Positions 26,437 to 42,227 of a stretch of DNA of 43,371 bases are shown piece after piece; the stretch's first letter is position 1; each line of letters begins with the position of its first letter. The translations under genes were made by a program, and so were the position numbers. Origin of the DNA: a virus; IMG/VR virus record IMGVR_UViG_3300020459_000021, positions 1 through 43,371 of that record; one strand, written 5' to 3'. Under the pieces are notes generated by a model, which did not search any database, was not told the origin of the DNA, and worked only from the letters and a program-made list of their open reading frames with translations.

Positions 26437-27181
26437 CGTCATCTCCATCACTGGTAGTGGTGGTATAGGGATTCCAGTAGATGGGTTTTTGTTTGGTGAA
26501 GTCATAATCTTGATAAGTAAGGATACGAGCAAGTCGAGCGTTTTGTAAGGCGATGTCTTCACCTAAGTCTTTGGATTTGAATGCTTTCACTACGGTCTCC
26601 CATGTGTAACCTTCTTCTTCAAATAAGGTGACTGCACGTTTTATTCCATAGCCTGGAGCGCCACTGTAACCGTCCGTTTGGTCACCGGCTAGTGTTTGTA
26701 TTAGATGCCACTTTCTACCCTCTTCAGGGTCAATCTCGACGGTCTCAGACATGTTATAAAGCTTGCCTGGAATCTGTCTCATGTCTTTGTCAGGTGAGCA
26801 GATTATATTTCCTGGATATTGTGTCGCATAAATACCCATAGCATCATCTGCTTCTAAGGTATCCATTTTGATGACTGTGAATTCTTCTTTTAGTTTGCTA
26901 ATTACCCTGCGATAACCACACGGCTTTTTTCTGTTTCTGTTACCTTTATATTCAGGAAAAATTTCTTTTCTAAAATTTATAGAGTCACTGAAAAATAGCA
27001 CCATTTCTGGTGTATCCCAAATAAACTCATTTCTAATCTTGTTCAAGTCTCGCTTGACATGGTTGTAAGCATCTTTGAACTTAGAGACAACCATGATGAC
27101 ATCATCACCCCAATCAATCTCGTCTTCTTGTGCTGCACAACATTTGTAAACTATGTAGTCTGCGTCAATTAATAATTTCAT
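26405..27181 (-). CDS. 5'-3' exonuclease (flap/T7 gp6-type)
   Basis: The ATG giving MKLLIDADYIVYKCCAAQ overlaps the DNA polymerase stop by one base and is preferred over an in-frame start inside the polymerase. The 258-residue protein has the acidic residues of the FEN/PIN fold: IDADY, FFSDSINF, LEADDAMGIYA and CSPDKDM. It then has the helix-hairpin-helix type LAGDQTDGYSGAPGYGIKR. T7 gp6 plays this part, removing RNA primers and degrading host DNA. The Asp-rich tail (TSDGDDDGT) overlaps the next gene. Confidence 0.92.
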   Translation of the reverse strand: MKLLIDADYIVYKCCAAQEDEIDWGDDVIMVVSKFKDAYNHVKRDLNKIRNEFIWDTPEMVLFFSDSINFRKEIFPEYKGNRNRKKPCGYRRVISKLKEEFTVIKMDTLEADDAMGIYATQYPGNIICSPDKDMRQIPGKLYNMSETVEIDPEEGRKWHLIQTLAGDQTDGYSGAPGYGIKRAVTLFEEEGYTWETVVKAFKSKDLGEDIALQNARLARILTYQDYDFTKQKPIYWNPYTTTTSDGDDDGTVIQVKEA

Positions 27182-29005: not shown

Positions 29006-30646
29006 TTAGAAGTCTGTTGCTGGGTCAAATTCTTTTGTAGCTTCATGTTCAGTAAATGAGCAAGTTTTCAGGTCATATTTCAGATGACAGGCAACGCCAG
29101 TCTCGCCGCTATATCTCTGCTTAAGGACTCGCAAAGTTGTTGAATTGTCACCATTGTCGGCCTGTTGATCTCTTTCGAGTGCAAGGCAAGTGTCAGATAG
29201 TTGGCTAATTGATGCGCTTCCTCTGAGTTGTCCAAGCGTGACACGTCCTCCCTCTTCATGGGAATGTTCTCCAGATGGTCGTTTCAAATGACATACAAGA
29301 AAGAGCGTTATTCCTGTACGTTCTACTAATGACCTCAAGCGGGTCATGGTGATATCGATTGTGCGTCTTTCATCTCCATCCAATCCACTTAGTAAGATGG
29401 ATAGGTGATCAAGAAAGATGATCTTACAATCAAGTCCCGAGGCTAAGTATTCAATCCGATTATAAATGATATCAGGATCAAAACTACCGAACCCGTCAAA
29501 AAGATAAAGCTTCCAGTTATTAATACTGGAATCAAACGCCTTTGTAAGTTCGTCATGTGTTGGTTCTCCTAAGTGTAGTGATTTACCAACTGCAGCGGAC
29601 ATTAGACCTAGTGCTGTACGTCGGTTTGACTCCTCAAGTGCCACGTAACCGACTGCTTCCCCTTCCTTAAGAAGGTCAACTGCAAGGTCTCTACAGAAGG
29701 ATGACTTTCCTGCACCAGTACCTGCAGTAATCGTGATAAGCTCGCCATATCTGATCCCGTGCAGTTTATTTTGTAAGCCTTTGAATTTGTACTCATGAAT
29801 ACATGGCGGGTTAGGTGTCGTAACAAGTTCAAGTAAGGATTTGGCATCTACAATGCCGTCTGGTCTAAATTCATTGTGGTCATAATTACAAACAGCTCTG
29901 ATTGCATCTGTATCTCCTGCTTGTAAAGCGTCTGAGGCGTCCTTGTAGTCCTCTAGAAAGCCTATGTAAACCTTTCCAGGTGGTAACACCCCTGCAGCTG
30001 CTTCGGCACCTTCACGGCCCGCTGCATCGTTATCAAAGAACAGTACTATTTTATCGTAAGCACTAATCCATTCATAATTATGCTGGATTGCTTTCTTTGA
30101 ACTAGGTGCTCCGTTCGGAATGGAGACCACATCCCAATTTGGTTGTGACTCCCAGACTGCCATGCAGTCCATTTCCCCCTCTGTAATAACTAATTTTGTT
30201 TCCCTCTTAGTTGTCTTCTTACGATAGTTCTGCATACCAAAGAGAGTTTTTACTTCTCCTTCGCACCTAAAGTCTTTGTTCTTAGTTCTGACCTTAGCTC
30301 CAACTATCTTACCTTCATCAAAATAGTAGTGTCTTAGTGTATTGCCTTCCTTGTAAGTCTTAAATAACTCACATGTGGCTTGACTGATGTTGCGTTTCTG
30401 CAGCCGTTCAGCTGAGCCTTTTAATTGGATCGCATTTGTCAATTTAATTTGTGGTGAATGTTGTGATTGTGAATGTGTATGACATACAAAACAAAAAGTG
30501 TGGTCCGTATAAACAGCTAAGCCGTCTGATGAACCACAATTACTACATGCTTCGTGCCTTAAAAACTCTGACTCAGATGAGCCAATCGATGGGGATATTA
30601 TGGAAGGAAGTCCACGGTATATCATGTTTATCACACCACTTTGCAT
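29006..30646 (-). CDS. DNA primase-helicase (T7 gp4-like)
   Basis: The 546-residue protein has a four-Cys zinc ribbon (Cys34, Cys37, Cys52, Cys55 in ACSNCGSS and FCFVCH), a TOPRIM primase core (ITEGEMDCMAV near 153, then VLFFDNDAAGREGA) and a DnaB-type helicase with Walker A TITAGTGAGKSS near 305-315. This is the full domain order of T7 gp4A. It unwinds the fork and makes RNA primers for the polymerase. A second in-frame ATG at 30625 (MIYRGLPS) is an equally plausible start. The 5' end overlaps the endonuclease gene by 74 bases. Confidence 0.95.
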   Translation of the reverse strand: MQSGVINMIYRGLPSIISPSIGSSESEFLRHEACSNCGSSDGLAVYTDHTFCFVCHTHSQSQHSPQIKLTNAIQLKGSAERLQKRNISQATCELFKTYKEGNTLRHYYFDEGKIVGAKVRTKNKDFRCEGEVKTLFGMQNYRKKTTKRETKLVITEGEMDCMAVWESQPNWDVVSIPNGAPSSKKAIQHNYEWISAYDKIVLFFDNDAAGREGAEAAAGVLPPGKVYIGFLEDYKDASDALQAGDTDAIRAVCNYDHNEFRPDGIVDAKSLLELVTTPNPPCIHEYKFKGLQNKLHGIRYGELITITAGTGAGKSSFCRDLAVDLLKEGEAVGYVALEESNRRTALGLMSAAVGKSLHLGEPTHDELTKAFDSSINNWKLYLFDGFGSFDPDIIYNRIEYLASGLDCKIIFLDHLSILLSGLDGDERRTIDITMTRLRSLVERTGITLFLVCHLKRPSGEHSHEEGGRVTLGQLRGSASISQLSDTCLALERDQQADNGDNSTTLRVLKQRYSGETGVACHLKYDLKTCSFTEHEATKEFDPATDF

Positions 30647-30926: not shown

Positions 30927-31498
30927 TAGAAATCTGTGTCTTCGTTATCTTCTTCTACAACTGGTGTGATGTTAGGTTCACCAGCAGTGAAGCCTTCAGT
31001 AGACCCAAATATGGCTGCTACATCTTCAGTTGACATATCACCAGTATCAACACCAGCCTGTCCATTAAGAGAGACAAGTTGTACACCGAGTAGCTTTAGA
31101 CTAGTACCATAGGTTACTCCATCCTTCAAGATGTAAGGCTTTTGATAGAACGCCAGCTTGACTCGTGATCCACTATAAACTGGGATGGTTTCATCAGTTA
31201 CTGGTGTACCTTTTGTATCAACAATAGGTGGCTTGTTATCTTCATTCCAAGAGAACTTGATAGTATAGACACCATCACTAACTTCTTCCCATGGTTCAGG
31301 ACGTAGAGTTGAACGCTTAGGGTTCTTTAGTTTTGACTCTGCCCACTTAAGGCCTTCGACACGATCAGAGTCAAGTTTGTCTGCCATCTGTTCATCGACA
31401 ATAGCCTTAAGACTAAAGCCAAACTTAGATGCTTTCATTACAGCCTGATAGCCTTCAAGGACTACAGGTTGTTCGGTTTTAAATACGTTGCGGGTCAT
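30926..31498 (-). CDS. Single-stranded DNA-binding protein (T7 gp2.5-like)
   Basis: The 190-residue protein sits between RNA polymerase and endonuclease I, like T7 gp2.5. Its core is OB-fold-like beta sequence (VYTIKFSWNEDNKPPIVD, RVKLAFYQKPYIL). The tail is acidic and ends EEDNEDTDF, with the C-terminal Phe that in T7 is needed to bind polymerase and helicase. Length is close to T7 gp2.5 (232). The start overlaps the polymerase stop by one base. Confidence 0.9.
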   Translation of the reverse strand: MTRNVFKTEQPVVLEGYQAVMKASKFGFSLKAIVDEQMADKLDSDRVEGLKWAESKLKNPKRSTLRPEPWEEVSDGVYTIKFSWNEDNKPPIVDTKGTPVTDETIPVYSGSRVKLAFYQKPYILKDGVTYGTSLKLLGVQLVSLNGQAGVDTGDMSTEDVAAIFGSTEGFTAGEPNITPVVEEDNEDTDF

Positions 31499-33837
31499 TA
31501 ACAGAAAAAATATGTGGAATCAACTACTGAAGATGGTTCAAGATCTCCAATAATCGGTGGTTCAGTCTCTGCTCCTATTTGTTTAGCAAAGTCTGTTAGG
31601 TAATCATTCTCAGCAAAGAGATGCATATAAGTCTCACGTACCACAGTGGATAAAAGAGACATATCAGTAGCTCTACATAACACGGAGTCGTGTATTAAAG
31701 CTATGGGAGCGTCAAAACGTAAGACGCTAAGATGCAAGAGAGAAGCATCGAGACTATGGATAAGATTAGGCGAGGTGGCATTCTTATGATGGTTTAGATC
31801 TACCTTGTCGCTATCACCTGTGGCTACGTTGACTCTCACTCTACCCATCAGTTGTAGATCAAGTCTTAAGAACTCTTTCTTCATAAACTTCTGAGTAGCA
31901 GTGAATCCAGATGGTGTTGTCCATTGGATTTCTCTTTCACCACGTTTGATAGCATTAGTCACTTCCTTATTGACCCAATCCATTACGGCTTTAGGTCCAG
32001 GGAATAACTCAAAGCAAGCATTACGTAAAGCATGAGTGATGACTGTGATGTCTTCTTTAGGAACATCGAGACCCTTCTCAATAAGGGCTTCTTTCACATA
32101 ACCCCAGTTGCTTTTGAACTTGGCGTTATAAGGAATTGTCATCACTAAGCGTTTACTTACCGACCTATCAATATGTTCTCTCCACTGTTCAGGTATGTTA
32201 GGCAGTGCTTTTTCAACTACTGCTTTGTATGCATCCTGAGGTGAATTCGATGGTAGAACATTAGTTAGACTTGCGGTACTTGCATCCCTCGCGAGACCTG
32301 CAAGTATCTGCATTCCGGAACACGTGGCATCGGTGGCAATAGGAAGGCAAGTATAGTTACGCTTCCCACTAATAACGCAATAATAATATTCCTCACAACT
32401 AGCGAGGAACTGCCATGGTTCATCGGCGACTTCCCATTCATGAATTGTACCTATTGGATCGAGTGTAATACGGGTAATTAGTTCTTCATTATCTAGCGTC
32501 CAATCAATACGTTCTTTCATAGTCTTTTTATCAAGACCATATGTCGTTGCTATTTGAAATCGTAGCCAGTCTTCTGCTTCAAACGTAACCATAGCTTCAC
32601 GACTAAACTTCAATAATGATTTACCAAAGTCTGTATCTTGAGGGGTTAAGTAAGCAGGTATTGGGTATGCTCTTCCACGGTAGTCGAGAGACCAGGGTAA
32701 AAAGAACTGTTCTTTATATCTATATCTTCTGACAGCTTCCATTGTCTTTCTAGTTCTGACATTACGTTTAGCATTGTCATTTAATCTATCGTGGTATAAC
32801 TTCTTTGCTCTTTTATATGATAAGAGTGATTCCTCATTCTCATCAATATCAGGAGGTCTTGTAGGTGGTTGCTCTTCCCATATAGGAATGAACTTACCAA
32901 CTGTTATCCTCTTTTCATACAGGGCTTCAGCAACGTCAGCTATGAAGGGGTTTACCTTATAGCCTACCTGTTGTATCCGGTTCAGATAATCATAGATTGT
33001 TCTGGCCTGTATAGGGGGGTGATCGGTTCTCCTCACCATCTGGTGACCTAGCATCACTTCATTCAGTAGGTAGCCACCAGCTCTGCACTCCTCCCAGTCA
33101 TTAGGTTCTATAAGCATTGGCCAAGCTTCAGGTGAGAATAACTCAGCGTTTGCTAATACCTCGTCTTTAATAGCTAAGAACTCAGGGGTTGGAAGGATAA
33201 CATTAGGTGTTTTCTTTCCTTCAGTGATAGTTACTTTATGAAACCAACCTGTACCTCTAATGATGCAGTCAAGTAACCACGTACCTAATCTGACACGATT
33301 TGCACTGCCCCAGTTACTCCATGGCTTTACATCATATCTATTCATCAATGTCTTGATTGATACCAGCTTTTGTGCTGTACCACTTGATTGATGCCAATAG
33401 TTTTTCTTAAGGACATTTAGTAGTCCAGGTGCTTCGTGTTCGTAGTGTCGCATCTGACACTCATTCTCTACAGCCTGACCAATAGCTTCTAATACCTTGG
33501 TCAGTGCGTTCGCCTTGTCGTCCCTACTGAATACACGGTCGAATGTAACTTTACATGCAATTGCAGCTGCAGCTAATGGCTCTACCTCAGATAAGTACTG
33601 AGCAATCTCCTTAAAGTTAACACCATTCTTACCTTCTTTGATACGTCTGCTTGTACGTTCGATTTCTTCGATAACACTCGGCAGCATCGTGTCGATACTT
33701 GCTACACCATATATAGAGGCACTTGCGTAACTCCTTTCCTCAAGTTGCCTGGTTTGTTTCTGTAGTTTGTACAGACCCTGAGAAATTGCTTGCCGTTCAA
33801 GCTTGATCTGCTCTTCAATTTGGGCAGGTGTTGGCAT
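31498..33837 (-). CDS. Single-subunit DNA-dependent RNA polymerase (T7 gp1-like)
   Basis: The 779-residue protein, slightly shorter than T7's 883, has the family's catalytic parts: LDYRGRAYPIP near 384, ATDATCSGMQILAGLARD with Asp near 500 (T7 Asp537), KRLVMTIPYNAKF with Lys and Tyr near 559-567 (T7 Lys631, Tyr639), and ALIHDSVLC with Asp near 714 (T7 Asp812). It transcribes middle and late phage genes from its own promoters. A strong terminator lies between it and the integrase, and a TTCACAATCAT element lies a few bases before its ATG, with no Shine-Dalgarno. One copy of a 22-base perfect repeat lies inside the gene at codons 271-277. Confidence 0.97.
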   Translation of the reverse strand: MPTPAQIEEQIKLERQAISQGLYKLQKQTRQLEERSYASASIYGVASIDTMLPSVIEEIERTSRRIKEGKNGVNFKEIAQYLSEVEPLAAAAIACKVTFDRVFSRDDKANALTKVLEAIGQAVENECQMRHYEHEAPGLLNVLKKNYWHQSSGTAQKLVSIKTLMNRYDVKPWSNWGSANRVRLGTWLLDCIIRGTGWFHKVTITEGKKTPNVILPTPEFLAIKDEVLANAELFSPEAWPMLIEPNDWEECRAGGYLLNEVMLGHQMVRRTDHPPIQARTIYDYLNRIQQVGYKVNPFIADVAEALYEKRITVGKFIPIWEEQPPTRPPDIDENEESLLSYKRAKKLYHDRLNDNAKRNVRTRKTMEAVRRYRYKEQFFLPWSLDYRGRAYPIPAYLTPQDTDFGKSLLKFSREAMVTFEAEDWLRFQIATTYGLDKKTMKERIDWTLDNEELITRITLDPIGTIHEWEVADEPWQFLASCEEYYYCVISGKRNYTCLPIATDATCSGMQILAGLARDASTASLTNVLPSNSPQDAYKAVVEKALPNIPEQWREHIDRSVSKRLVMTIPYNAKFKSNWGYVKEALIEKGLDVPKEDITVITHALRNACFELFPGPKAVMDWVNKEVTNAIKRGEREIQWTTPSGFTATQKFMKKEFLRLDLQLMGRVRVNVATGDSDKVDLNHHKNATSPNLIHSLDASLLHLSVLRFDAPIALIHDSVLCRATDMSLLSTVVRETYMHLFAENDYLTDFAKQIGAETEPPIIGDLEPSSVVDSTYFFC
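33006..33027 (-). repeat. Copy 1 of a perfect 22-base repeat (candidate phage promoter)
   Basis: Plus-strand bases begin CCTGTATAGGGGGGTG and end ATCGGT; an identical copy is at 40472-40493 in the same orientation. On the coding strand the core reads CACCCCCCTATACAGG, with the CTATA typical of T7-type promoters near the start site. Here it lies within the RNA polymerase gene and encodes TDHPPIQ, so this copy is also under coding constraint. Confidence 0.5.
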
Positions 33838-33858
33838 AGGCGATTTATGATTGTGAAT

Positions 33859-33900
33859 AAAAAGTACACCGGGGATAAGTTGTCTTATACCCCAGTGTAA
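33859..33900 (-). terminator. Rho-independent terminator between integrase and RNA polymerase
   Basis: On the coding strand ACACTGGGG, ATAAG, a short loop, CTTAT and CCCCGGTGT form a stem of about 14 pairs with one bulge and one G-T pair, followed by ACTTTTTATT. It would limit transcription from the integrase region into the phage RNA polymerase gene and so may set the timing of the switch. Confidence 0.88.
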
Positions 33901-33931
33901 TGGATTAGATAATAGTTAATGGATGGACCAT

Positions 33932-34786
33932 CTAGTTAAATACACTAGACAATGCCTCTTCTCGTGCCTTATCTGTCGCTTTAGCGTACCGTAATACGGT
34001 CTCATACTTCTTCCAGCCACCTAAGTCCATTAACACTCTTAGTGGGGTTCCAGCTTCAACATTCCAAGTAGCAAAGCTATGCCTAAGGGAGTGAAAAACA
34101 TAATGTGGTTCCTTCCCTATCTGTTTAGCTGCTTTCTTGAAATACCATAGTACTGATCTACCATCAATCCATTCATCACCAAAGATACAGCAGTCAGGAT
34201 GTGTACCAACAACACGTTCCTCTAAGATCTGTCTGATAGGTTCAGCAATAGGTAACACTCTCCAATCACCATTCTTGGTGTTGAATCCTGGCCTACCGCC
34301 AAAGTACAAACAGTTCTTATCTAGATCTACATCTTTAGCTTTGACACTAAGTAATTCAGACATCCGTCCACCAGTACAACTGGCAAACCTAATGATCTCT
34401 GATAAACGATGATTAGTGATCTTACATAACTCATCTACCTCATCCTTAGTAAAGAACCAAGGACGTCCCTGAGATTCTTTATATTGTTTGATCTTTGGTG
34501 GTGCAAATTCAATCTCCTCCTCATCGTAACAATGGTTCAGTGCTGTTGTAACTGGTGTGATCCTCCTGTTGATTGATGATCCAGGTACTTCTAAGTCTTC
34601 AAGGTATTGTTGATAAGACTTAAGAAACTTCCTGGTGATATCCCGTAGTGGATAATCAGCACCTGCAAAGTTGGTGAAATGATTGCAGTTAATCCTTGTT
34701 GATACTCTACCTCCTCCATGTTTCCATGAATAACGTGTTTTGAATGTGTAGTCCATTGCCTGTTGCCAGGTGACCATTTCAGTCAT
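33932..34786 (-). CDS. int: Tyrosine site-specific recombinase (integrase)
   Basis: Starting at the ATG giving MTEMVTWQQAMDY, the product has 284 residues. It has a core-binding helix domain (about 1-105) and a catalytic domain with Arg141 in CTGGRMSELLSV, Lys171, the HxxR pair His232 and Arg235 in HSLRHSF, Trp258 in LGGWKKYE, and the nucleophile Tyr267 in VLRYAKAT. All catalytic residues are present, so it may be active. Several P-SSP7-type phages carry an integrase beside RNA polymerase, but lysogeny has rarely been shown. I saw no clear tRNA-derived attachment site directly beside it. Its start overlaps the MarR-like gene by eight bases. Confidence 0.95.
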   Translation of the reverse strand: MTEMVTWQQAMDYTFKTRYSWKHGGGRVSTRINCNHFTNFAGADYPLRDITRKFLKSYQQYLEDLEVPGSSINRRITPVTTALNHCYDEEEIEFAPPKIKQYKESQGRPWFFTKDEVDELCKITNHRLSEIIRFASCTGGRMSELLSVKAKDVDLDKNCLYFGGRPGFNTKNGDWRVLPIAEPIRQILEERVVGTHPDCCIFGDEWIDGRSVLWYFKKAAKQIGKEPHYVFHSLRHSFATWNVEAGTPLRVLMDLGGWKKYETVLRYAKATDKAREEALSSVFN

Positions 34787-35123
34787 AAAGATCAGTGTAA
34801 AGATCATGTACTAATGCCTGACCTTTCTCAGTAAGAGAAAGCATCAACCTACGTCCTTCACGTGTCTTTTTAACTAACCCTAAGCCAGGTTTTTTAAGCC
34901 GATGCATATCAGTTAGCCAGTCAATGTTACGTGAACAACTAGCAGTAGTGAACTCTAGATCTTCTTCAATAGCCTCTTTATGACAAGGGTTATGTGAAGC
35001 AACGTAGAGAAAGACACTACATACTTGAGTAGGTATCTCACGCTCTAATCGTCTTAGACGTTCGATGGCGTTGAGTACCCTTGCCATATCGTCGTTGGTT
35101 TGATCCCTTTTTATAGGGTCCAT
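34779..35123 (-). CDS. MarR-like winged-helix DNA-binding protein
   Basis: The 114-residue protein has the MarR winged-helix pattern: IPTQVCSVFLYVASHN, a recognition-helix segment in TTASCSRNIDWLTD, then the wing (KKTREGRRLMLSLTEKG) and a closing helix (ALVHDLYTDLYD). Such proteins are dimeric regulators. It is co-transcribed with the integrase, overlapping it by eight bases, and lies behind a perfect extended -10 promoter. It may control the integrase operon or early host promoters. No ligand site can be inferred. Confidence 0.75.
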   Translation of the reverse strand: MDPIKRDQTNDDMARVLNAIERLRRLEREIPTQVCSVFLYVASHNPCHKEAIEEDLEFTTASCSRNIDWLTDMHRLKKPGLGLVKKTREGRRLMLSLTEKGQALVHDLYTDLYD

Positions 35124-35149
35124 TGAAAGGCAAGGAGAACTCCAACACT

Positions 35150-35178
35150 ATTATACCACAGTGGATATGCAGTGTTCG
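35150..35178 (-). promoter_or_regulatory. Host-type promoter for the MarR-like/integrase operon
   Basis: On the coding strand TGGTATAAT (TATAAT at 35150-35155) is an extended -10 element with a perfect -10 hexamer. The -35 region 17 bases upstream reads CGAACA, matching consensus only in its last three bases, which is acceptable for extended -10 promoters. Transcription would start near 35143, 20 bases before the MarR-like ATG. The short leader and strong -10 suggest early expression by host polymerase. Confidence 0.7.
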
Positions 35179-35181
35179 TCT

Positions 35182-35197
35182 AGATGTCCAGATGTCG
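35182..35197. promoter_or_regulatory. Tandem 8-base repeat upstream of the integrase-operon promoter
   Basis: AGATGTCC at 35182-35189 is followed at once by AGATGTCG at 35190-35197. Eight-base tandem units are typical operators for MetJ/Arc-type ribbon-helix-helix dimers, and such a protein gene lies 73 bases away. The repeats lie just upstream of the -35 region. Assignment to that protein is inference. Confidence 0.4.
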
Positions 35198-35269
35198 TAC
35201 CGTCCTGGACTTTGTGTACCGAAATAGAACATTAACGAATGATTGTGATTTGTTTAATATAATCTACAT

Positions 35270-35431
35270 TTATACATCATGTAGTTCAGTAGAGCTACTT
35301 TTATCACTTTCGTTTAGGTATGCAATAACCGCATTGTTTATAATCTGTATAAGTGTCATATTGTTATCCATTGCGTGTAGTTTCAACCTTCTATGAGTTG
35401 CTAGGTTGAACAACGCGGTTACCCGTTTCAT
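35270..35431 (-). CDS. Ribbon-helix-helix DNA-binding protein, 53 aa
   Basis: An ATG at 35429-35431 opens 53 codons. The product reads MKRVTALFNLATHRRLKLHA, then MDNNMTLIQIINNAVIAYLN, then a short polar tail. This fits the ribbon-helix-helix fold: a beta strand (VTALFNL), helix A starting at a His-Arg, a turn with Asn-Met-Thr, and helix B with a hydrophobic face. The family includes Arc, CopG and MetJ repressors. It lies alone in a 345-base gap before the MarR-like gene, with candidate operators on both sides. The short length would hide it from standard gene calling. Confidence 0.72.
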   Translation of the reverse strand: MKRVTALFNLATHRRLKLHAMDNNMTLIQIINNAVIAYLNESDKSSSTELHDV

Positions 35432-35468
35432 GCAGTTGTTAGAAGCATTCTCATTGTGACCTACATTT

Positions 35469-35579
35469 CTACATATTTAAGGAAAGCGAATACTCGCGTA
35501 ACATTTCCTGCACATGTAGTTCCTTATCATTAGCTACACCATAGGCAAGGAAAAATGCGTATTCTTCGTTATTCATCAT
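35469..35579 (-). CDS. Very small hypothetical protein, 36 aa
   Basis: Double ATG codons overlap the stop of the upstream gene (ATGATGAATAA), a common coupling arrangement. The product begins MMNNEEYAFFLAYGVANDK and ends EMLREYSLSLNM. It is acidic and helical. Evidence rests on the overlap and composition only; longer readings of the frame run backwards inside the upstream gene. Confidence 0.45.
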   Translation of the reverse strand: MMNNEEYAFFLAYGVANDKELHVQEMLREYSLSLNM

Positions 35580-35886
35580 TTCTGTCCGCTGGAAAGAAGA
35601 TAAGTTCTTCGTGAGTGGCTGTTGCGATTTCAATGTGCTGTTCATTAAGTTTAGTTGCAAGAAATTCTTGTGCTGCTGTTATTTGTTTGTATGCTTTTTC
35701 AGTTACTTTCCCACTTCTAGTGTTATAAACACGATTAATAGCGCAGTAACTTGGTCTTAGCTCCCAACTTTCTACTCTTTGTGTCATAAACTCTTCAAAT
35801 GTTGGAGTTGGAAATAACTCAAGAGGTGCTCCCTTGATTAATCTCCAGTTATTCTCACTGTATGGTTTGGGTTTTTTACCATTCAT
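35569..35886 (-). CDS. Hypothetical protein, 105 aa
   Basis: The product begins MNGKKPKPYSENNWRLIKG, is charged, with Trp and Tyr in the first half, and has a helical segment around TEKAYKQITAAQEFLATKLN. No domain is recognised. Its start overlaps the stop of the upstream 48-aa gene by 11 bases and its stop overlaps the next ATG, so it belongs to a string of coupled small early genes. Confidence 0.7.
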   Translation of the reverse strand: MNGKKPKPYSENNWRLIKGAPLELFPTPTFEEFMTQRVESWELRPSYCAINRVYNTRSGKVTEKAYKQITAAQEFLATKLNEQHIEIATATHEELIFFPADRNDE

Positions 35887-36022
35887 CTGCTAGCCTCACG
35901 TCAATTAGTTGTTCTTCACGGTTAAGGCTTAGCTCTAACGCGTTGTATGCTGCTGTCTCCTTGTCTTTTGCAAGGATGTTTACTACACCACTGTCTGATA
36001 AGACAACATCGTACAAATCCAT
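35876..36022 (-). CDS. Small hypothetical protein, 48 aa
   Basis: An ATG at 36020-36022 opens 48 codons. The product is MDLYDVVLSDSGVVNILAKD, then a helix with KETAAYNALELSLN and an acidic end. The beta-then-helix layout is regular for a small folded protein. A TCACAATCATCC element lies ten bases before the ATG. Its end overlaps the next start. No family is recognised. Confidence 0.62.
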   Translation of the reverse strand: MDLYDVVLSDSGVVNILAKDKETAAYNALELSLNREEQLIDVRLADEW

Positions 36023-36075
36023 AAAGTCCCGGATGATTGTGAAAGTTATTGTTATTTAAAGTGAGATGTTAATAC

Positions 36076-36207
36076 TTAACCCCCAACTTCCTCTTTAAGC
36101 TTTTTAGTCTTTTCTGAGCGTTGCGTAGTTTCACGGGTTTTTTCTTGCCTTTCTCTTTCCTCTTTCCGTCGCTTGTCTTGAAAATATTTGATGATTGCAT
36201 TGTTCAT
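36076..36207 (-). CDS. Small charged hypothetical protein, 43 aa
   Basis: The ATG follows the upstream TAA directly (TAAATG). The product begins MNNAIIKYFQDKRRKEERER and consists largely of Lys, Arg, Glu and Gln, ending KLKEEVGG. It should form one highly charged helix, perhaps binding nucleic acid or a host protein. Small basic or charged helices are common among early phage genes that alter host functions. Confidence 0.6.
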   Translation of the reverse strand: MNNAIIKYFQDKRRKEERERQEKTRETTQRSEKTKKLKEEVGG

Positions 36208-36372
36208 TTAATTCTCCGATGTGGTTTCAGTTGATTTATCGTTTGGAGCCCACTTGCTTGGAACCCGTACGGGATACCATCCGTAATGAACTTTTCCGCT
36301 TGAATCACCTTCGATTGTGTACCTGAGGAGTTGCTTGGTGTTGAAGTCGTAGTAGTGTTTTTTGTTAGTCAT
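36208..36372 (-). CDS. Small hypothetical protein, 54 aa
   Basis: The ATG at 36370-36372 overlaps the upstream stop by eight bases. The product begins MTNKKHYYDFNTKQLLRYTI and has a beta-type core with KVHYGWYPVRVPSKW, rich in Tyr and Trp, then a polar tail. It could be a small beta-barrel or SH3-like protein, but no family is recognised. Confidence 0.62.
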   Translation of the reverse strand: MTNKKHYYDFNTKQLLRYTIEGDSSGKVHYGWYPVRVPSKWAPNDKSTETTSEN

Positions 36373-36655
36373 CCTTCGTGCTGGTGTCATTCTTGACAAC
36401 ATACTTTTCTAGTGCTTTAATCATTTCTTTTGCAGACTCAATTGTATGCTCTTTAGTCTTTAGCTCATTAAATACATTGCGCTTACTGCATAATGCACTG
36501 CGACAAGCCATAAACATGGCGTCAGCGTTAATACCATTGATGCAGATAGTGTTGTCTTCATAATCATGTAGATTAATAGAGTCGTCACACTCTGCCCAAA
36601 AGACTGAAGCATCTTTCATGTAGTATGTGTACATGACTGAAGGTTGTGATAACAT
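36365..36655 (-). CDS. Hypothetical protein, 96 aa
   Basis: The product begins MLSQPSVMYTYYMKDASVFW, has an acidic middle (AECDDSINLHDYEDNTICIN) and ends in a helical segment with EMIKALEKYVVKN. Four Cys are present but not in a metal-binding arrangement. The leader holds GCGTCCAGGATGATTGTG, repeated before the next gene upstream. The function is unknown. Confidence 0.65.
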   Translation of the reverse strand: MLSQPSVMYTYYMKDASVFWAECDDSINLHDYEDNTICINGINADAMFMACRSALCSKRNVFNELKTKEHTIESAKEMIKALEKYVVKNDTSTKDD

Positions 36656-36701
36656 TAGGTGGCGTCCAGGATGATTGTGGTTTTAGTAGGCATCATTTGT
36701 G

Positions 36702-36863
36702 TTAGTTTGCCTTAAACATCTCTTGATGTAGGTTTAGGTTTTGTTCTTTGTATTCACGAGTGAGACGTAATATTTCCTCACGACACCAATCAGCTTGTTG
36801 GCTGTGATGATACATTTGCTCACGCAATTTGTTTTGTTTGTAGTTACGCTCTGTGATTGTCAT
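36702..36863 (-). CDS. Small hypothetical helical protein, 53 aa
   Basis: The chosen ATG gives MTITERNYKQNKLREQMYHH; further upstream codons in frame lie in a repeat-bearing leader and terminator. The product is a charged helix rich in Gln, Glu and Arg (REEILRLTREYKEQNLN). Three tandem copies of the TCACAATCAT-type element precede it. No family is recognised. Confidence 0.6.
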   Translation of the reverse strand: MTITERNYKQNKLREQMYHHSQQADWCREEILRLTREYKEQNLNLHQEMFKAN

Positions 36864-36884
36864 TAGAACTAGCCAGCGTCCAGG

Positions 36885-36913
36885 ATGATTGTGAATGATT
36901 GTGATGACTGTGA
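36885..36913 (-). promoter_or_regulatory. Three tandem copies of the early leader element
   Basis: Plus-strand copies ATGATTGTGA at 36885-36894, ATGATTGTGA at 36895-36904 and ATGACTGTGA at 36904-36913 follow one another at nine to ten base spacing. They lie between a terminator and the ATG of the 53-aa gene. Single copies or variants occur before at least seven other early genes. Operator or translation element are both possible. Confidence 0.6.
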
Positions 36914-36920
36914 AACCACC

Positions 36921-36951
36921 AAAAAACCCCACTATTTATTAGATAGCGGGG
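36921..36951 (-). terminator. Rho-independent terminator in the early block
   Basis: On the coding strand CCCCGCTAT, a short loop and ATAGTGGGG form a nine-pair stem with one G-T pair, followed by six T. It ends the transcript of the KTSC-like gene at 36978-37205 and separates it from the next small genes. Confidence 0.88.
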
Positions 36952-36977
36952 ATATTAATGGCTTATGTATTAGTAAC

Positions 36978-37205
36978 TCAGCCGATAGTTGTTACCATAT
37001 TACCCTTGCAATATGCATTTACGAACTTACCAACTGATTCGTATTCACCAGCTAGGTAGTCAAGAATAGCATCGAAGCTAACATTTTCATAGAGGTATGA
37101 TTTCGTGCTGTTGATGTATTTAACTAAAACTTGGTTAGTTGTTGGGTTTAATTGGATAGAAGCAACAGCGGATGAATCAGTGTTAGTAGTTGGTGAAAAG
37201 AACAT
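36978..37205 (-). CDS. KTSC-like small protein, 75 aa
   Basis: The ATG at 37203-37205 is chosen because earlier in-frame codons run into the tRNA gene. The product begins MFFSPTTNTDSSAVASIQLN and contains QVLVKYINSTKSYLYENV followed by SFDAILDYLAGEYESVGKFV. The V-x-F/Y-x-x-G/S-x-x-Y-x-Y-x-x-V pattern is that of the KTSC domain, a small fold of unknown function. A second such protein lies at 38358-38651. A terminator follows. Confidence 0.72.
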   Translation of the reverse strand: MFFSPTTNTDSSAVASIQLNPTTNQVLVKYINSTKSYLYENVSFDAILDYLAGEYESVGKFVNAYCKGNMVTTIG

Positions 37206-37245
37206 GTTTTTGTTAGTTGAATAAAATGGCACGGAATTGTACCAA

Positions 37246-37317
37246 CGAGGTATACCAGATTCGAACTGGTAATGATGGATAGACAATCCATAGTGATAAC
37301 CGTTTCACCAATACCCC
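37246..37317 (-). tRNA. tRNA-Asp (anticodon GUC), with an unusual base 37
   Basis: The 72 bases fold into a complete cloverleaf: acceptor GGGGTAT/ATACCTC with one G-T pair, D stem GTGA/TCAC with GG in the loop, anticodon stem ATGGA/TCCAT with loop TTGTCTA, a four-base variable loop, and T stem ACCAG/CTGGT with loop TTCGAAT. The anticodon reads GTC and the discriminator is G, as in tRNA-Asp. CCA is not encoded (TTG follows). Base 37 is T, where a purine is expected, which may weaken decoding. A fragment acting as an attachment site is the main alternative. Confidence 0.8.
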
Positions 37318-37323
37318 ATAGAA

Positions 37324-37340
37324 AGGAGTAACAAACTCCT
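37324..37340 (-). terminator. Hairpin just before the tRNA gene, weak terminator or processing site
   Basis: On the coding strand AGGAGT, loop TTGTT and ACTCCT form a perfect six-pair stem followed by TTTCTATGG. It lies six bases before the tRNA 5' end and after the 77-aa gene. The T tract is short, so termination would be weak; it may instead mark tRNA 5' processing. Confidence 0.45.
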
Positions 37341-37351
37341 GTGAATGTGAA

Positions 37352-37585
37352 TTAATTCCGTATGAATGTAAAGTTGGAACAATCGCAAGGTAGAGCGTAT
37401 TCTTTAGCATCGTGATATTTGACAAAGACTTTATCTTCGTCAACATCAACACAATGTAAGCCTACCATTTCATTATTCATGAATAGATTAAACTCATCGC
37501 ATTCCGCATCACTCATTCCAGAATCATCAGCATTGATAAGTGGAGATGCCCAATGTGAGGGCAGAAAGAGTTCAATAGTTTCCAT
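37352..37585 (-). CDS. Acidic hypothetical protein, 77 aa
   Basis: The product begins METIELFLPSHWASPLINAD and contains DDSGMSDAECDEFNLFM followed by a beta-type half (KVFVKYHDAKEYALPCDCS). It is strongly acidic in the first half. The layout resembles small phage and plasmid proteins of unknown function found near antirestriction genes, but I do not assign a family. A TTCACATTCATC element precedes it. Confidence 0.68.
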   Translation of the reverse strand: METIELFLPSHWASPLINADDSGMSDAECDEFNLFMNNEMVGLHCVDVDEDKVFVKYHDAKEYALPCDCSNFTFIRN

Positions 37586-37619
37586 AGAATTGTTGAAAGA
37601 ATCGTGATGAATGTGAATG

Positions 37620-38120
37620 TTAGATATTACGGAAGAAGTAAGTATTATTCTTGAACTCTACAGTTTGATAATCATAGCGAAGTGCAGAATACCAAACAAG
37701 TTCCCAATCTATACAATTGCTGATGAATTCTGGTTCAATAGTGTAACCAATTGATTCGAATAACTCTTCACTAAACTCAGCGAATACTCTTTCACCATAA
37801 CCTTCCATTTCTCTTTCAAATGCATCCTCAAACTGTTCGACATCATTAATACCGTAGTTTGCAAGTTCTTCAATGAATGAATCAAACTCTTCTTCATCAA
37901 TGATATTATAAGTACGATTGCTAATCTCATCGATTAGGAGTTGATACTCTTCACTCTTGGAATCATACCAAGTAGCAAAATCTGCTTGTGCTTGCATAGT
38001 TAACTCTGCATCATGTGATTCAATTTCAAGAGAATCAGGAACAATAGTTTCAGGCTTGAAGTGTTCTGCAATGTATGCATCACGTTCAGCACCAGTGAGA
38101 AGAATAGTGTTGTCAGACAT
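37620..38120 (-). CDS. ArdA-like antirestriction protein
   Basis: The 166-residue protein is very acidic throughout. Its C-terminal half has the ArdA pattern: EQFEDAFEREMEGYGERVFA, then FSEELFESIGYTIEP, then CIDWELVWYSALRYDYQTVE and NNTYFFRN. ArdA proteins mimic bent B-DNA and block type I restriction enzymes. T7 carries an unrelated DNA mimic, Ocr, as its first gene, so this early location fits. The N-terminal 60 residues are less typical. The leader carries a TCACAATCAT element and no Shine-Dalgarno. Confidence 0.75.
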   Translation of the reverse strand: MSDNTILLTGAERDAYIAEHFKPETIVPDSLEIESHDAELTMQAQADFATWYDSKSEEYQLLIDEISNRTYNIIDEEEFDSFIEELANYGINDVEQFEDAFEREMEGYGERVFAEFSEELFESIGYTIEPEFISNCIDWELVWYSALRYDYQTVEFKNNTYFFRNI

Positions 38121-38166
38121 AGTTTGAAATACGATAGTGGATAAGTTGATTAAATGATTGTGAGTT

Positions 38167-38355
38167 TTAGATACTAGTGAATTGAAGTTCGTTCATCTCA
38201 TCATTAGAATCTAAGAAACCATACTCAATTGATTCGAAACCAAGCGTATTGATTGAATCATTGAGTTCATCGTAATAGTTACACATTGCATCGAATAGAG
38301 TTTCAAACTCCTCCAATACACTATGCTCATTTTGATTTAATAGTGTGTAAAACAT
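38167..38355 (-). CDS. Acidic hypothetical protein, 62 aa
   Basis: The ATG at 38353-38355 gives MFYTLLNQNEHSVLEEFETL; an in-frame TTG two codons upstream overlaps the preceding stop. The product is acidic and helical (FDAMCNYYDELNDSINTLG) and ends LQFTSI. Such strongly acidic small proteins next to an antirestriction gene might also mimic DNA, but there is no motif for this. Confidence 0.62.
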   Translation of the reverse strand: MFYTLLNQNEHSVLEEFETLFDAMCNYYDELNDSINTLGFESIEYGFLDSNDEMNELQFTSI

Positions 38356-38357
38356 AC

Positions 38358-38651
38358 TCAAACAGTAGCGAGATAGCTTTGAGTTGAACCGTAGTAATCA
38401 ACCAAACCTTTTACGTTAGCGTAACGAACACGATTAGGGCGGATACAGTTGTTATTAACCCAAAAACCTAGTGAGATGTTCTCATTTGTGAAAGCGTAAT
38501 CAAGCCAAAGTTGCACGATAGCTCGCTTGCTTACATTCTTATAAGAATATGTTTCACCACTCTTGAATGTTACAAGTACACAACCTTTAGCAAGTTGGCA
38601 ATTGATTTCATTGATTGAATTTGAGAAACGTTTTACAGTGAAGTTGAACAT
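38358..38651 (-). CDS. KTSC-like protein, 97 aa
   Basis: The ATG at 38649-38651 gives MFNFTVKRFSNSINEINCQL. The core VLVTFKSGETYSYKNVSKRA is a good KTSC match, followed by a second half (WLDYAFTNENISLGFWVNNN) and the end YYGSTQSYLATV. Compared with the gene at 36978-37205 it carries an extra C-terminal third. Both may be an early paralogue pair. Longer readings of this frame overlap the small gene at 38705-38878. A TTCACATTCATC element precedes the ATG. Confidence 0.72.
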   Translation of the reverse strand: MFNFTVKRFSNSINEINCQLAKGCVLVTFKSGETYSYKNVSKRAIVQLWLDYAFTNENISLGFWVNNNCIRPNRVRYANVKGLVDYYGSTQSYLATV

Positions 38652-38704
38652 GTTTGAATTAATAGAGTGAATTGATGAATGTGAAAAAGATTGTAGTATT
38701 CTTA

Positions 38705-38878
38705 CTAAATCTTTGGTGGTTTGATTCGTACCGTGCTTAATGCTCGATACTCCCAACTCTTCTTTTTACCTAGAGTTGTTTTGTGCTTCTTTGCAATGTG
38801 ATTCAATGAATGAAAGCAACGGATATACTCAAAGGGTTTTACATCAGTTTGATTGATGATGTCTCCCGAGTTCTTCAT
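38705..38878 (-). CDS. First early gene: small basic hypothetical protein, 57 aa
   Basis: An ATG at 38876-38878 opens 57 codons ending TAG, preceded by AAAGGA at good spacing, one of the few clear Shine-Dalgarno sites here. The product begins MKNSGDIINQTDVKPFEYIR and continues with a Lys/His-rich part (HIAKKHKTTLGKKKSWEYR) to RIKPPKI. It would be the first gene after the early promoter near 39022-39050. No family is recognised. Small basic products in this position often act on the host. Confidence 0.65.
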   Translation of the reverse strand: MKNSGDIINQTDVKPFEYIRCFHSLNHIAKKHKTTLGKKKSWEYRALSTVRIKPPKI

Positions 38879-39021
38879 ACTATCCTTTATAACTCGAATG
38901 TTATATAAGATAGAATGAAATCATCCCGTTGTTCTGCAGCTTCAGCAGTATGGCTACCACTTACCGTGGTGAGTTGTTCAATTGTTAGGTTGAAATTCTT
39001 TCAAATTTCCTCCATGTATCC

Positions 39022-39050
39022 AATATACAGGAGTGGATAGGGTTTCGCAA
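39022..39050 (-). promoter_or_regulatory. Early host-type promoter
   Basis: On the coding strand TTGCGA (39045-39050), a spacer of exactly 17 bases and TATATT (39022-39027) make a sigma-70-type promoter with four and five consensus matches. Transcription would start near 39015 and reach the first early gene after about 137 bases. The -10 part lies in a 14-base word repeated at 39171-39184. Confidence 0.65.
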
Positions 39051-39170
39051 GAGGGTTTGTGCCACTTGTTCAACTGATTCACTGTTCAGCTTCGCTTGGC
39101 GATTTACTAGGTGAGATGTGGTGGATGGGTTGGCTAACCTTCGCGGCAGCTCCCTGTCCTTCACTCTTTT

Positions 39171-39184
39171 AATATACAGGAGTG
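39171..39184 (-). repeat. Second copy of the 14-base early-promoter word
   Basis: AATATACAGGAGTG here is identical to 39022-39035. On the coding strand it contains TATATT, but no good -35 lies 16-18 bases upstream, only TATCTT. It may be a second weaker promoter or a protein site shared by both. Confidence 0.45.
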
Positions 39185-39496
39185 CACGCCAAAAAGATAG
39201 AGTATAAATACCTATCTTTGTATGAGCTGTGCTTATGGGTACTGATAAGGCGGGATGATGAATGTGAATAACACTTAGTGGTGTAATTATCCTCTTATTC
39301 TTTACTCCTTCTGTATGGCTCTGTATAACACTTAGTACTGTTTCTGATACATTCTACCTGATTGATATTACAAGGGCATTGTAGAGGCTTATAGCGTAGG
39401 CTCAGCATCAATTAGTGTCGTTGCTTATTTAATAATGTAATCGCAACAGATAATGTAACAATATGATACGAATACGTATCGTTTGTATAACTAATC

Positions 39497-39579
39497 CGCT
39501 CGCACTTCGTGCTCGCTTGGTGCATCATCATAATAATACTGGATAATACATAGCAAATAAAGCGAGCGTAGCGAGCGGG
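39497..39579. repeat. GC-rich inverted repeats in the gene-poor region
   Basis: CCGCTCGC and GCTCGCTT on the left pair with AAGCGAGC and GCGAGCGG on the right, across about 40 bases. Each arm is also itself a small imperfect inverted repeat around ACTTCGTG and GTA. The GC content is far above that of the flanks. A similar GC-rich palindromic word is found in the gene at 39877-40236. Confidence 0.6.
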
Positions 39580-39745
39580 CAAGATTAGATAGCTTATCCA
39601 ATCGGCATGGCACGCTTCACATTCATATACTTAGCTGCATCAATCCTCCCACTATGTAGCAACACCCCCCACTGGGGGTATTACAAACTCCCGGATTATG
39701 CGATACGGGTTCAGAAAATTATGTCAAAAATTTAAGGGACCATCC

Positions 39746-40471: not shown

Positions 40472-40493
40472 CCTGTATAGGGGGGTGATCGGT
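40472..40493 (-). repeat. Copy 2 of the perfect 22-base repeat (candidate phage promoter)
   Basis: This copy is identical to 33006-33027 and directly follows the terminase stop. On the coding strand it reads into TATACAGGGGAGGG, which resembles the T7 promoter end TATAGGGAGA. It is not needed for coding here. CCCC and GGGG around TATACA could also pair. In T7 a promoter, phi-OR, lies at the equivalent right end of the genome. Confidence 0.55.
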
Positions 40494-42227
40494 CTAGATC
40501 CATTGCGCCGTAACGGATTTACCTTTAAGTTGTCTTGCTTGTTTACGTTGTTCTAGATTAAAGCCAAACACCATATGATTACAAGCTTGTTGAGGGTCAT
40601 CTAGGAAGGCTTCATTCATATCATTCCAGTCTTCCATGCGTTGAGTCTTCATGGTTTCATAAGCAGAGATCGACATAGCATCTGTGTAATATTTAACACC
40701 TTGAGCTAAGCAATCTAATCTGTCGTCATGTTTAACGGCACCTTTTTCACGACACATTCTAGACATTTGATAGAAGAGCATATAAAGGAGACGTTCTTCA
40801 GGTGGAGCATCAGGATTTGATTTAAAGTCCCATTCAATAACTCTTCTATCTACGATCAGTCTATGTTGATTAAGTACTGGTTCAAGAGAATCAATGATAC
40901 GGTCTTCTTTACGAACATTAGCCCTTACTTCTTCGATATCTATGAGTTGTTTAGTTTGTTGGAGATGTTTTTTAAAGAGTTCACCAACCATACCATCACC
41001 GAAGTTAGTTTCAATAAGGAGTTTAGTAACACCATATTTTTTACAACCTCTTAGAACATCCAGTAATGTCTTGTCGGAGTACCCGTCTTTATAAGCTCGC
41101 ATTTCGTGCAAGTACAGGAAACCGTTACGTTGTGAGAGATAAGCTGCTGCTGTTTCATCTGATCCACGACCCGACGGATCAATAGAGCAGATTGTTTCGG
41201 TGTAAGGGTTCCAATCTCCTTGGAGTAACATTGGAGAGTAGAAATAGTCTCCAGGTAATCCCACAGTGGGTAGGTCTTTAATGATATTTGTTGGATCTGA
41301 ACACCATACGACGGCATCTGGAGCAGAGGTAGGGTTAACGCTAGTGATAACAAGGTCAGCACATTTAAGGGGGAATTTTTCAGCATCACTAAGGGAGGTA
41401 TCGAGCATGAACTGGAGCATGAAGTTAGATCTGCCCATAGCAGCTTCACGATCTAGTAGGTCGTCATCATCAAAACGATCAGGGTCAGTTACTGTCCATT
41501 CAGTAGCACCATTATCGATATCAGAGACAAGTTGTGGGGCCAAGAGCCCCTCATAGTTTTCTATCTTCTTAGGGTATCTAGCAGGCCAAACAAAGGGCTT
41601 ATAGTTCCTTTCAGCGAGCTTACGATAGACAGTAAAGACAGTTTGAGGTGTACCTAAGAAAAGGATACGTGAGTCATCTTTAGGAGTAAGGATAGATTCA
41701 GCTTCTGTACAGAGTTGAAGAAGTTTCTCACGCATAAGTTCCGTCATTGAGTTACCAGGAACTTCGATGTCATCAAGGATCATTAGATCTGCACGACTAC
41801 CTGTAAGTTGACCTGTAATACCTACTGATTTGACGGAGGGGGCTTGATGAGGGCTGCAAGCAACATCAAAGCTGATACGAGACCAACGAGCGTTATCATC
41901 TTTAGGTTTAATATGAGATAGCCAAGGTGTTTCAATGATCAGCTTCTGTAAGAAGATCGACATGTTATCGGCACGTTCTTTAGAAGCAGAGATGATCATA
42001 ATTTTCTTTTCTGGATCTTTAAATAAAGTCCAGAGCACAAAAGCTCCAGTAATCCATGATTTACCTACTCCACGGAAAGCTTGTATTTGTAATCGTTTAG
42101 GACCATTTTGAAGATAATCTGCGATTGCATATTGAGCACGAGTAGGGGATGGAAGGTCTAGTTGTCCCCACATAGCTTGTAGGAACAACTTAAAATCATC
42201 CCTTAGAAGTTCTAAGGTGTTATTCAT
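40494..42227 (-). CDS. Terminase large subunit (gp19-like)
   Basis: The 577-residue protein drives DNA packaging. The ATPase domain has Walker A FRGVGKSW at 51-58 and Walker B ADLMILDDIE near 146-155. The nuclease domain has Asp in CSIDPSGRGSDETAAA near 348 and a later Asp pair in DDRLDCLAQG near 499. Length is close to T7 gp19 (586). Its start overlaps the upstream gene by eight bases. Downstream lie a candidate promoter and a terminator. Confidence 0.96.
   Translation of the reverse strand: MNNTLELLRDDFKLFLQAMWGQLDLPSPTRAQYAIADYLQNGPKRLQIQAFRGVGKSWITGAFVLWTLFKDPEKKIMIISASKERADNMSIFLQKLIIETPWLSHIKPKDDNARWSRISFDVACSPHQAPSVKSVGITGQLTGSRADLMILDDIEVPGNSMTELMREKLLQLCTEAESILTPKDDSRILFLGTPQTVFTVYRKLAERNYKPFVWPARYPKKIENYEGLLAPQLVSDIDNGATEWTVTDPDRFDDDDLLDREAAMGRSNFMLQFMLDTSLSDAEKFPLKCADLVITSVNPTSAPDAVVWCSDPTNIIKDLPTVGLPGDYFYSPMLLQGDWNPYTETICSIDPSGRGSDETAAAYLSQRNGFLYLHEMRAYKDGYSDKTLLDVLRGCKKYGVTKLLIETNFGDGMVGELFKKHLQQTKQLIDIEEVRANVRKEDRIIDSLEPVLNQHRLIVDRRVIEWDFKSNPDAPPEERLLYMLFYQMSRMCREKGAVKHDDRLDCLAQGVKYYTDAMSISAYETMKTQRMEDWNDMNEAFLDDPQQACNHMVFGFNLEQRKQARQLKGKSVTAQWI

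Follow-up and report, generated by a model that had tools for sequence, protein, structure and literature searches.

Results

Location of the element in the window

The stretch of DNA analysed here (the window) comprises positions 1 to 43,371 of the IMG/VR virus record IMGVR_UViG_3300020459_000021. It is the genome of a T7-like cyanophage (cyanopodovirus), and its main genes all lie on the minus strand. A short word, TCACAATCAT or its variant TCACATTCATC (hereafter the element), is present in 12 copies in the leaders of the early genes, and more copies lie inside the RNA polymerase (RNAP), primase, and exonuclease genes (Table 1). In T7-like viruses that infect marine and freshwater cyanobacteria, a sense-oriented short word of this kind is found on early and DNA-replication genes, and not on late genes. 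The window RNAP is 60-64% identical to the RNAPs of Synechococcus phages, e.g., S-RIP1, S-CBP1, and S-RIP2, and at the DNA level hardly any similarity to named phages is left; hence, a short word kept across them is informative.

Matches to the element in the window number 18 in the sense orientation and 3 on the opposite strand. When up to one mismatch to TCACAATCAT was allowed, 19 matches were found against 5.6 expected, a number reached by none of 100 shuffled sequences. Exact TCACAATCAT occurs six times on the coding strand and never on the opposite strand; for TCACANTCA, the counts are 14 and 1. No sense match lies in the late region, in agreement with the first-pass annotation of this DNA, which had noticed no copy in the structural half. 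That annotation had described a recurring element in early leaders shortly before the ATG, and every copy that it listed was recovered on the minus strand, with gaps of 9-33 nucleotides (nt) to the start codon in the leaders. The exception is a weaker copy before a ribbon-helix-helix gene, which proved to be just TCACAATGAG and was not counted. Early leaders are thus a genuine location of the element, but not its only one, as the in-gene copies show. The proposal that the gene of 166 amino acids (aa) is ArdA-like found no support in Pfam.

Table 1. Features of the window, and tRNA-Asp genes of three further phages, with positions and strand.
Feature	Position	Strand	Remark
In-gene element TCACAGTCAT(C)	26871..26880	-	exonuclease gene
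Two overlapping elements ACACATTCAC, TCACAATCAC	30463..30478	-	primase linker past the zinc-binding domain
RNAP gene	31498-33837	-	
In-gene element TCACAGTCAT	32039..32048	-	RNAP +1789
Predicted phage-RNAP promoter copy 1, ACCGATCACCCCCCTATACAGG	33006..33027	-	RNAP +810
Element TCACAATCAT	33847..33856	-	9 nt 5' of RNAP ATG; directly past strong terminator-like hairpin (T-tract near 33863)
Integrase gene	33932-34807	-	
MarR-like gene	34779-35123	-	
Element TCACAATCAT	35239..35248	-	non-coding stretch 5' of MarR-like gene
105-aa early protein, phrog_9569	35569..35886	-	candidate regulator by position only
Element TCACAATCAT(C)	36033..36042	-	5' of 48-aa/105-aa operon
Element CCACAATCAT	36671..36680	-	5' of 96-aa gene
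Three tandem elements TCACAGTCAT, TCACAATCAT, TCACAATCAT	36885..36913	-	5' of 53-aa gene; directly past terminator-like hairpin; copies at 36885-36894, 36895-36904, 36904-36913
tRNA-Asp (GUC) gene, window	37245-37318	-	early region
tRNA-Asp (GUC) gene, L008	827-900		early region
tRNA-Asp (GUC) gene, L011	1080-1153		early region
tRNA-Asp (GUC) gene, L044	2042-2115		early region
Element TCACATTCAC	37341..37350	-	22 nt 5' of tRNA-Asp gene
Element TCACATTCAT(C)	37607..37616	-	21 nt 5' of 77-aa gene
Element TCACAATCAT	38154..38163	-	33 nt 5' of ATG of 166-aa gene
Element TCACATTCAT(C)	38675..38684	-	about 23 nt 5' of likely ATG of KTSC-like gene
Element TCACATTCAT(C)	39258..39267	-	early-region non-coding leader
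Early genes	up to about 40,300	-	
Predicted phage-RNAP promoter copy 2, ACCGATCACCCCCCTATACAGG	40472..40493	-	end of terL
terL	40494-42227	-	

Conservation and phage-specific spelling

The first-pass annotation had staked its claim on related phages, and the element is present in these relatives. The family follows the pattern [T/C/A]CACANTCA[Y/A], also written (T)[T/C/A]CACANTCA[C/T], with UUCACACUCAC as one wild-type spelling, and was seen in nearly all cyanopodovirus genomes tested. The leader site kept most widely is the one 5' of the 48-aa/105-aa operon. Related RNAPs are encoded in 53 loci from IMG/VR and in four GenBank regions; there, TCACANTCA lies almost solely on the coding strand, and many of these loci are fragments. 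Across 19 genomes, the early-to-replication region contains 149 sense and 32 antisense matches to the family pattern (44 expected; at most 65 in 30 simulations), and the late region contains 36 sense and 59 antisense matches, i.e., no sense excess; these counts take in some chance matches.

Over-represented sense words were also sought in whole genomes by an unbiased 9-mer search, and the element was among the top directional words in many of them. The sense and antisense counts were 6:0 for S-RIP1 (CACATTCAC), 5:0 for S-CBP1 and 6:0 for DSL-LC07 (both TCACACTCA), 4:0 for S-B28 (CCACACTCA), 8:0 for NATL1A-7 (CACAATCGA), 5:0 for P-SSP7 (CACACTCAT), 4:0 for P-SSP10 (CCACCATCA), and 7:0 for the window (CACAATCAT). 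P60 carries CACCATCAT seven times in sense and never in antisense, and Syn5 carries CACCATCA 21 times in sense and never in antisense. As a positive control, the same search recovered the T7 promoter from T7, which does not contain the element. No such word emerged from two pelagiphages, and the element was not enriched in two T4-like cyanophages. S-SRP01 and G002 showed no clear enrichment; S-RIP2, S-SBP1, and MedS28C3 have just a few copies. No description of the word was found in the full texts searched, with the terms tried, and it may have been described elsewhere.

Each phage has its own variant, for example ACACACTCAT in P-SSP7, TCACAATCGA in NATL1A-7, and CACCATCA in Syn5, P60, and P-SSP10. 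The spelling is uniform within a genome: the variable base is common to 0.53 of within-genome pairs versus 0.32 after permutation (maximum 0.43), and the whole 10-mer to 0.28 versus 0.09 (maximum 0.17). Between L022 and L027/L035, whose RNAPs are 91% identical, the variable base differs (A vs. C) and has changed in concert at the RNAP-internal and primase sites.

Some recurrence could stem from chance, from codon usage, or from leaders duplicated recently. The leaders of the 96-aa and 53-aa genes have CACAATCATCCTGGACGC in common, and some of the CACCATCAC copies counted in Syn5 are coding and could be a product of codon usage. Taken over the entire set, this explanation, to which we give almost no credence, is refuted by the asymmetry in strand and region, by the occupation of orthologous positions in phages whose RNAPs are 50-60% identical, and by the synonymous-shuffle tests described below.

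Selection at the nucleic-acid level

Within coding sequences, the word is kept independently of the peptide that it encodes. In the primase linker, past the zinc-binding domain, it occurs in 46 of 56 genomes and in three reading frames (40, 5, and 1 genomes), where it encodes differing peptides, such as VHTHKM, VHNHKM, RSQSSM, and PPSSED, or HTHK, HNHQ, SQSS, and PPSS. Where an in-frame start codon is present closely 3' of this site, it lies at about the position at which the shorter gp4B begins in T7. Of 39 non-redundant genomes, 21 have a copy in the RNAP gene, at +1348-1391 or +1783-1813; in phages other than that of the window, the internal positions are +1351, +1388, or +1783-1813. When codons were shuffled synonymously, 6.9 sites remained in RNAP (maximum 12) against 20 observed, and 8.5 in primase (maximum 14) against 24 observed. 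DNA polymerase, ribonucleotide reductase, portal, terL, and ssb gave no excess in the same test, so the copies in DNA polymerase may be protein-driven.

Upstream of the 105-aa early gene, the word lies about 155-245 nt 5' in most phages with enough sequence. The small gene that precedes the 105-aa gene, of 48 aa in the window, has its start codon either 5' or 3' of the fixed word and in three frames. Since the word persists whatever the reading frame, and whether the start codon has shifted to its 5' or its 3' side, selection acts on it at the level of nucleic acid.

These positions bear on the proposal that the element is a translation initiation enhancer, or a start-codon operator, in place of a Shine-Dalgarno (SD) sequence. 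Its closeness to start codons in the window and the mostly SD-less leaders suit this role, and T4 RegA operators likewise overlap start codons. The claim that the leaders lack SD sites holds for most of them, but GGA is kept in the 48-, 96-, and 53-aa leaders, and the SD-like CAAGGACGC lies between the element and the ATG in many relatives. Moreover, the word stands 22-46 nt 5' of tRNA-Asp in three of the four phages in which this gene was located, deep in the RNAP and exonuclease coding sequences, and sometimes just past the start codon. The translational role put forward in the first-pass annotation is thus disfavoured, and we regard it as unlikely.

CAAGGACGC is itself a second sense-only leader word (SD-like AAGGA, then CGC), enriched in the early/replication regions of P-SSP7, NATL1A-7, S-CBP3, S-SBP1, S-CBP4, and G001. 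The window retains just CTGGACGC remnants of it.

A separate repeat pair predicts the phage RNAP promoters

The Syn5 RNAP has two promoters only, and more than 37 kb are transcribed from one of them (PMC3950665). The Syn5 promoter sequence ATTGGGCACCCGTAA was located at 4929 (RNAP +812) and at 44797 (right end, end of terL), and the 21 CACCATCA copies lie elsewhere. In 17 of 19 genomes, including the window, a genome-specific repeat of 13-18 bp was found at RNAP +807-821 and again at or near the end of terL; the S-B28 genome has its second copy about 1.3 kb beyond that gene. Most of these pairs end in TATACAGGG or similar, e.g., GTATACAGGG. No such pair was found in the other two genomes, DSL-LC07 and 7B11-B. 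In Syn5, this pair is the known RNAP promoter, and the repeats are predicted to serve as RNAP promoters in the window phage as well as in P-SSP7, S-TIP37, S-CBP1, and others.

The element could in principle have been the promoter of the phage single-subunit RNAP, given that it is directional, multi-copy, and spelled in a phage-specific manner, with a TCAC core that recalls T7 TCACTATAG. It nevertheless differs from the mapped Syn5 promoters, has neither the TATACAGGG part, nor a T7-like core ending TATA..GGG, nor the two-copy layout, and 17 of 19 genomes possess an equivalent pair elsewhere. This candidate was rejected as very improbable.

Whether residues of the RNAP set the variable base was also considered. 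The two best alignment columns correspond to residues 682 and 686 of the window RNAP, close to where the T7 specificity-loop region ends, and they separate phages with A-type words from those with C-type words. The association looks like phylogeny, since L022 has A-type sites and yet equals its C-type relatives at 682/686.

Sequence context of the copies

The logo comprises about 11 informative nt with a G-poor flank. The main rival to a role in RNA is a DNA-level transcription element, either a start site or a regulator site, used by host RNAP with a phage-encoded factor in the manner of T7 class II promoters. Like those promoters, the element is directional, is present in many copies over early and replication genes, and lies within some genes; unlike them, it has no TATAGGG, the RNAP in these phages has a two-copy promoter of its own, and the Syn5 RNAP does not use the element. 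Tandem copies 9-11 nt apart would fit this rival, as would copies directly past terminator-like hairpins (RNAP and 53-aa genes) and before tRNA-Asp. Other features would also suit transcription starts and so weigh against a tag read in RNA: the sequence 5' of the word is AT-rich, and TAnnnT directly 5' of it (-6) shows a mild excess (11% vs. 1.7%, partly base composition). The predicted RNA accessibility of the word is weakly in favour of a tag read in RNA: it is slightly raised (0.629 vs. 0.595, p=0.03), and its sense-minus-antisense excess is not significant (p=0.15). On the other side, no strong signal of a partner box at fixed spacing was found, such as the -10 box of a host sigma-70 promoter would give, the element differs from the phage-RNAP promoter, and the 48-aa coding region of several phages contains the word past the start codon, where it could serve the next gene only. 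We consider this DNA-level explanation a serious possibility. A shared operator, i.e., a DNA repressor site, is made less probable by the strict sense orientation, the lack of symmetry, and the in-gene copies.

The hairpins, which are strong, terminator-like, and provided with T-tracts, lie at about 33858-33900 and 36915-36955 (minus strand), 5' of the RNAP and 53-aa genes, and the element is immediately 3' of each. A terminator 5' of the RNAP gene is unexpected in a T7-like early operon. A systematic hairpin 5' of the copies was not significant overall, and only individual cases were seen. An antisense RNA bearing the complementary word was rejected, as antisense copies are not consistent.

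In the non-coding left arm of the window, at about 39500-39580, GC-rich inverted repeats GCTCGCACTTCGTGCTCGC and GCGAGCGTAGCGAGCGGGC were observed. The 360-aa gene at 14782-15864 (minus strand) clusters with the P-SSP7 copy of psbA (photosystem D1) and is assigned to that family.

Candidate partner factors

Different variants occur in phages of the same or near-identical hosts, as in NATL1A-7 and P-SSP10 (hosts NATL1A and NATL2A) and in Syn5 and S-TIP37 (both WH8109). A host factor is disfavoured by these pairs, and the partner of the word is probably phage-encoded. The concerted change of the variable base between L022 and L027/L035/L018 constitutes a natural experiment bearing on the partner protein.

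The 105-aa early protein is a lead for this factor, not a finding. It is the most widespread of the early proteins and nearly universal in the clade, was detected in 60 of 70 sequences searched, the remainder being mostly truncated contigs, and has the invariant residues Y9, R52, K60, E63, Y66, and A72. The word usually lies 5' of its operon, as would be expected for self-control. An AlphaFold2 model (mean predicted local distance difference test score 81.9) has two strands, a helix, and two strands. Several results run counter to a post-transcriptional factor of this kind. The protein has no Pfam relatives, no fold in the PDB matched it at E below 0.2, its matches to viral models are mainly orthologues, and it was not detected in Syn5 and P60, both of which carry the word. 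Likewise, no RNase or RNA-binding factor for the word was found, and no regB homologue was seen.

A MarR-like protein was rejected as a universal factor, since in a tblastn search the MarR-like gene of the window was absent from many word-bearing phages. At the pMarR sites of P-SSP7, a phage-encoded regulator acts 3' of a start site (PMC9692554), and the window also has a MarR-like gene; no pMarR consensus was found in the text of that report. MarR sites are typically palindromic, whereas the element is asymmetric and sense-only and does not resemble a MarR-type operator.

Discussion

Among known systems, the T4 RegB sites offer the closest parallel to the proposed mode of action. The long motif that RegB cleaves lies in early leaders and in some coding sequences, that of regB itself included, and the enzyme is autoregulated (PMC3014915). 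Its sites are GGAG/U, with GG*AGRAYARAA as strong sites. Like them, the element is a short, presumably single-stranded word in early leaders, mostly in translation initiation regions, with some copies in coding sequence and with late genes spared. Unlike them, it has the core CACANTCA without GGAG, and it is also found on replication genes and before tRNA. T4 RegA operators cover part of the start codon or lie directly 5' of it; such a position is seen for some element-bearing genes and not for the RNAP-internal, exonuclease, and tRNA copies. The Syn5 RNAP promoter ATTGGGCACCCGTAA likewise occurs in sense only, has a copy in the RNAP gene, and has phage-specific counterparts in relatives; it differs in being limited to two copies per genome at fixed places, and the sequence of the element is unrelated to it.

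Our leading interpretation, held tentatively, is that the word is a cyanopodovirus-wide cis element that tags early and middle RNA for a putative phage post-transcriptional factor. Of the three roles offered in the first-pass annotation, the best fit is a site for an RNA-binding protein of the phage. If the tag is read in RNA, this would account for the sense-only orientation, the restriction to early and replication genes, and the positions flanking start codons, before tRNA-Asp, after hairpins, and within genes. The factor could be a phage-encoded RNA-binding protein or a sequence-specific endoribonuclease that reads the word, in unstructured form, in messages of the early and middle classes, whether near starts, after hairpins, before tRNA, or within long genes. 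The factor would process or silence the tagged messages while middle and late genes continue to be transcribed together from a single upstream RNAP promoter, acting much as RegB does on its sites without the word being a RegB site.

Since the Syn5 RNAP transcribes more than 37 kb from one promoter, transcripts must be common to middle and late genes, and the switch between the two would then have to be partly post-transcriptional. We envisage, more speculatively, a post-transcriptional regulon in which a fast-evolving phage RNase or RNA-binding protein would read the 10-nt tag and separate early/replication messages from late messages of the same one-promoter transcripts; in each phage, the set of tags would evolve jointly with the factor.

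Among the viruses of marine picocyanobacteria, T7-like cyanophages are abundant, and they time gene expression with only two RNAP promoters. Genetics is already established for S-TIP37 and Syn5 (PMC8776855). A lineage-wide early/middle tag, together with the RNAP promoter pairs predicted for most of these genomes, makes the timing of expression in these viruses directly testable.

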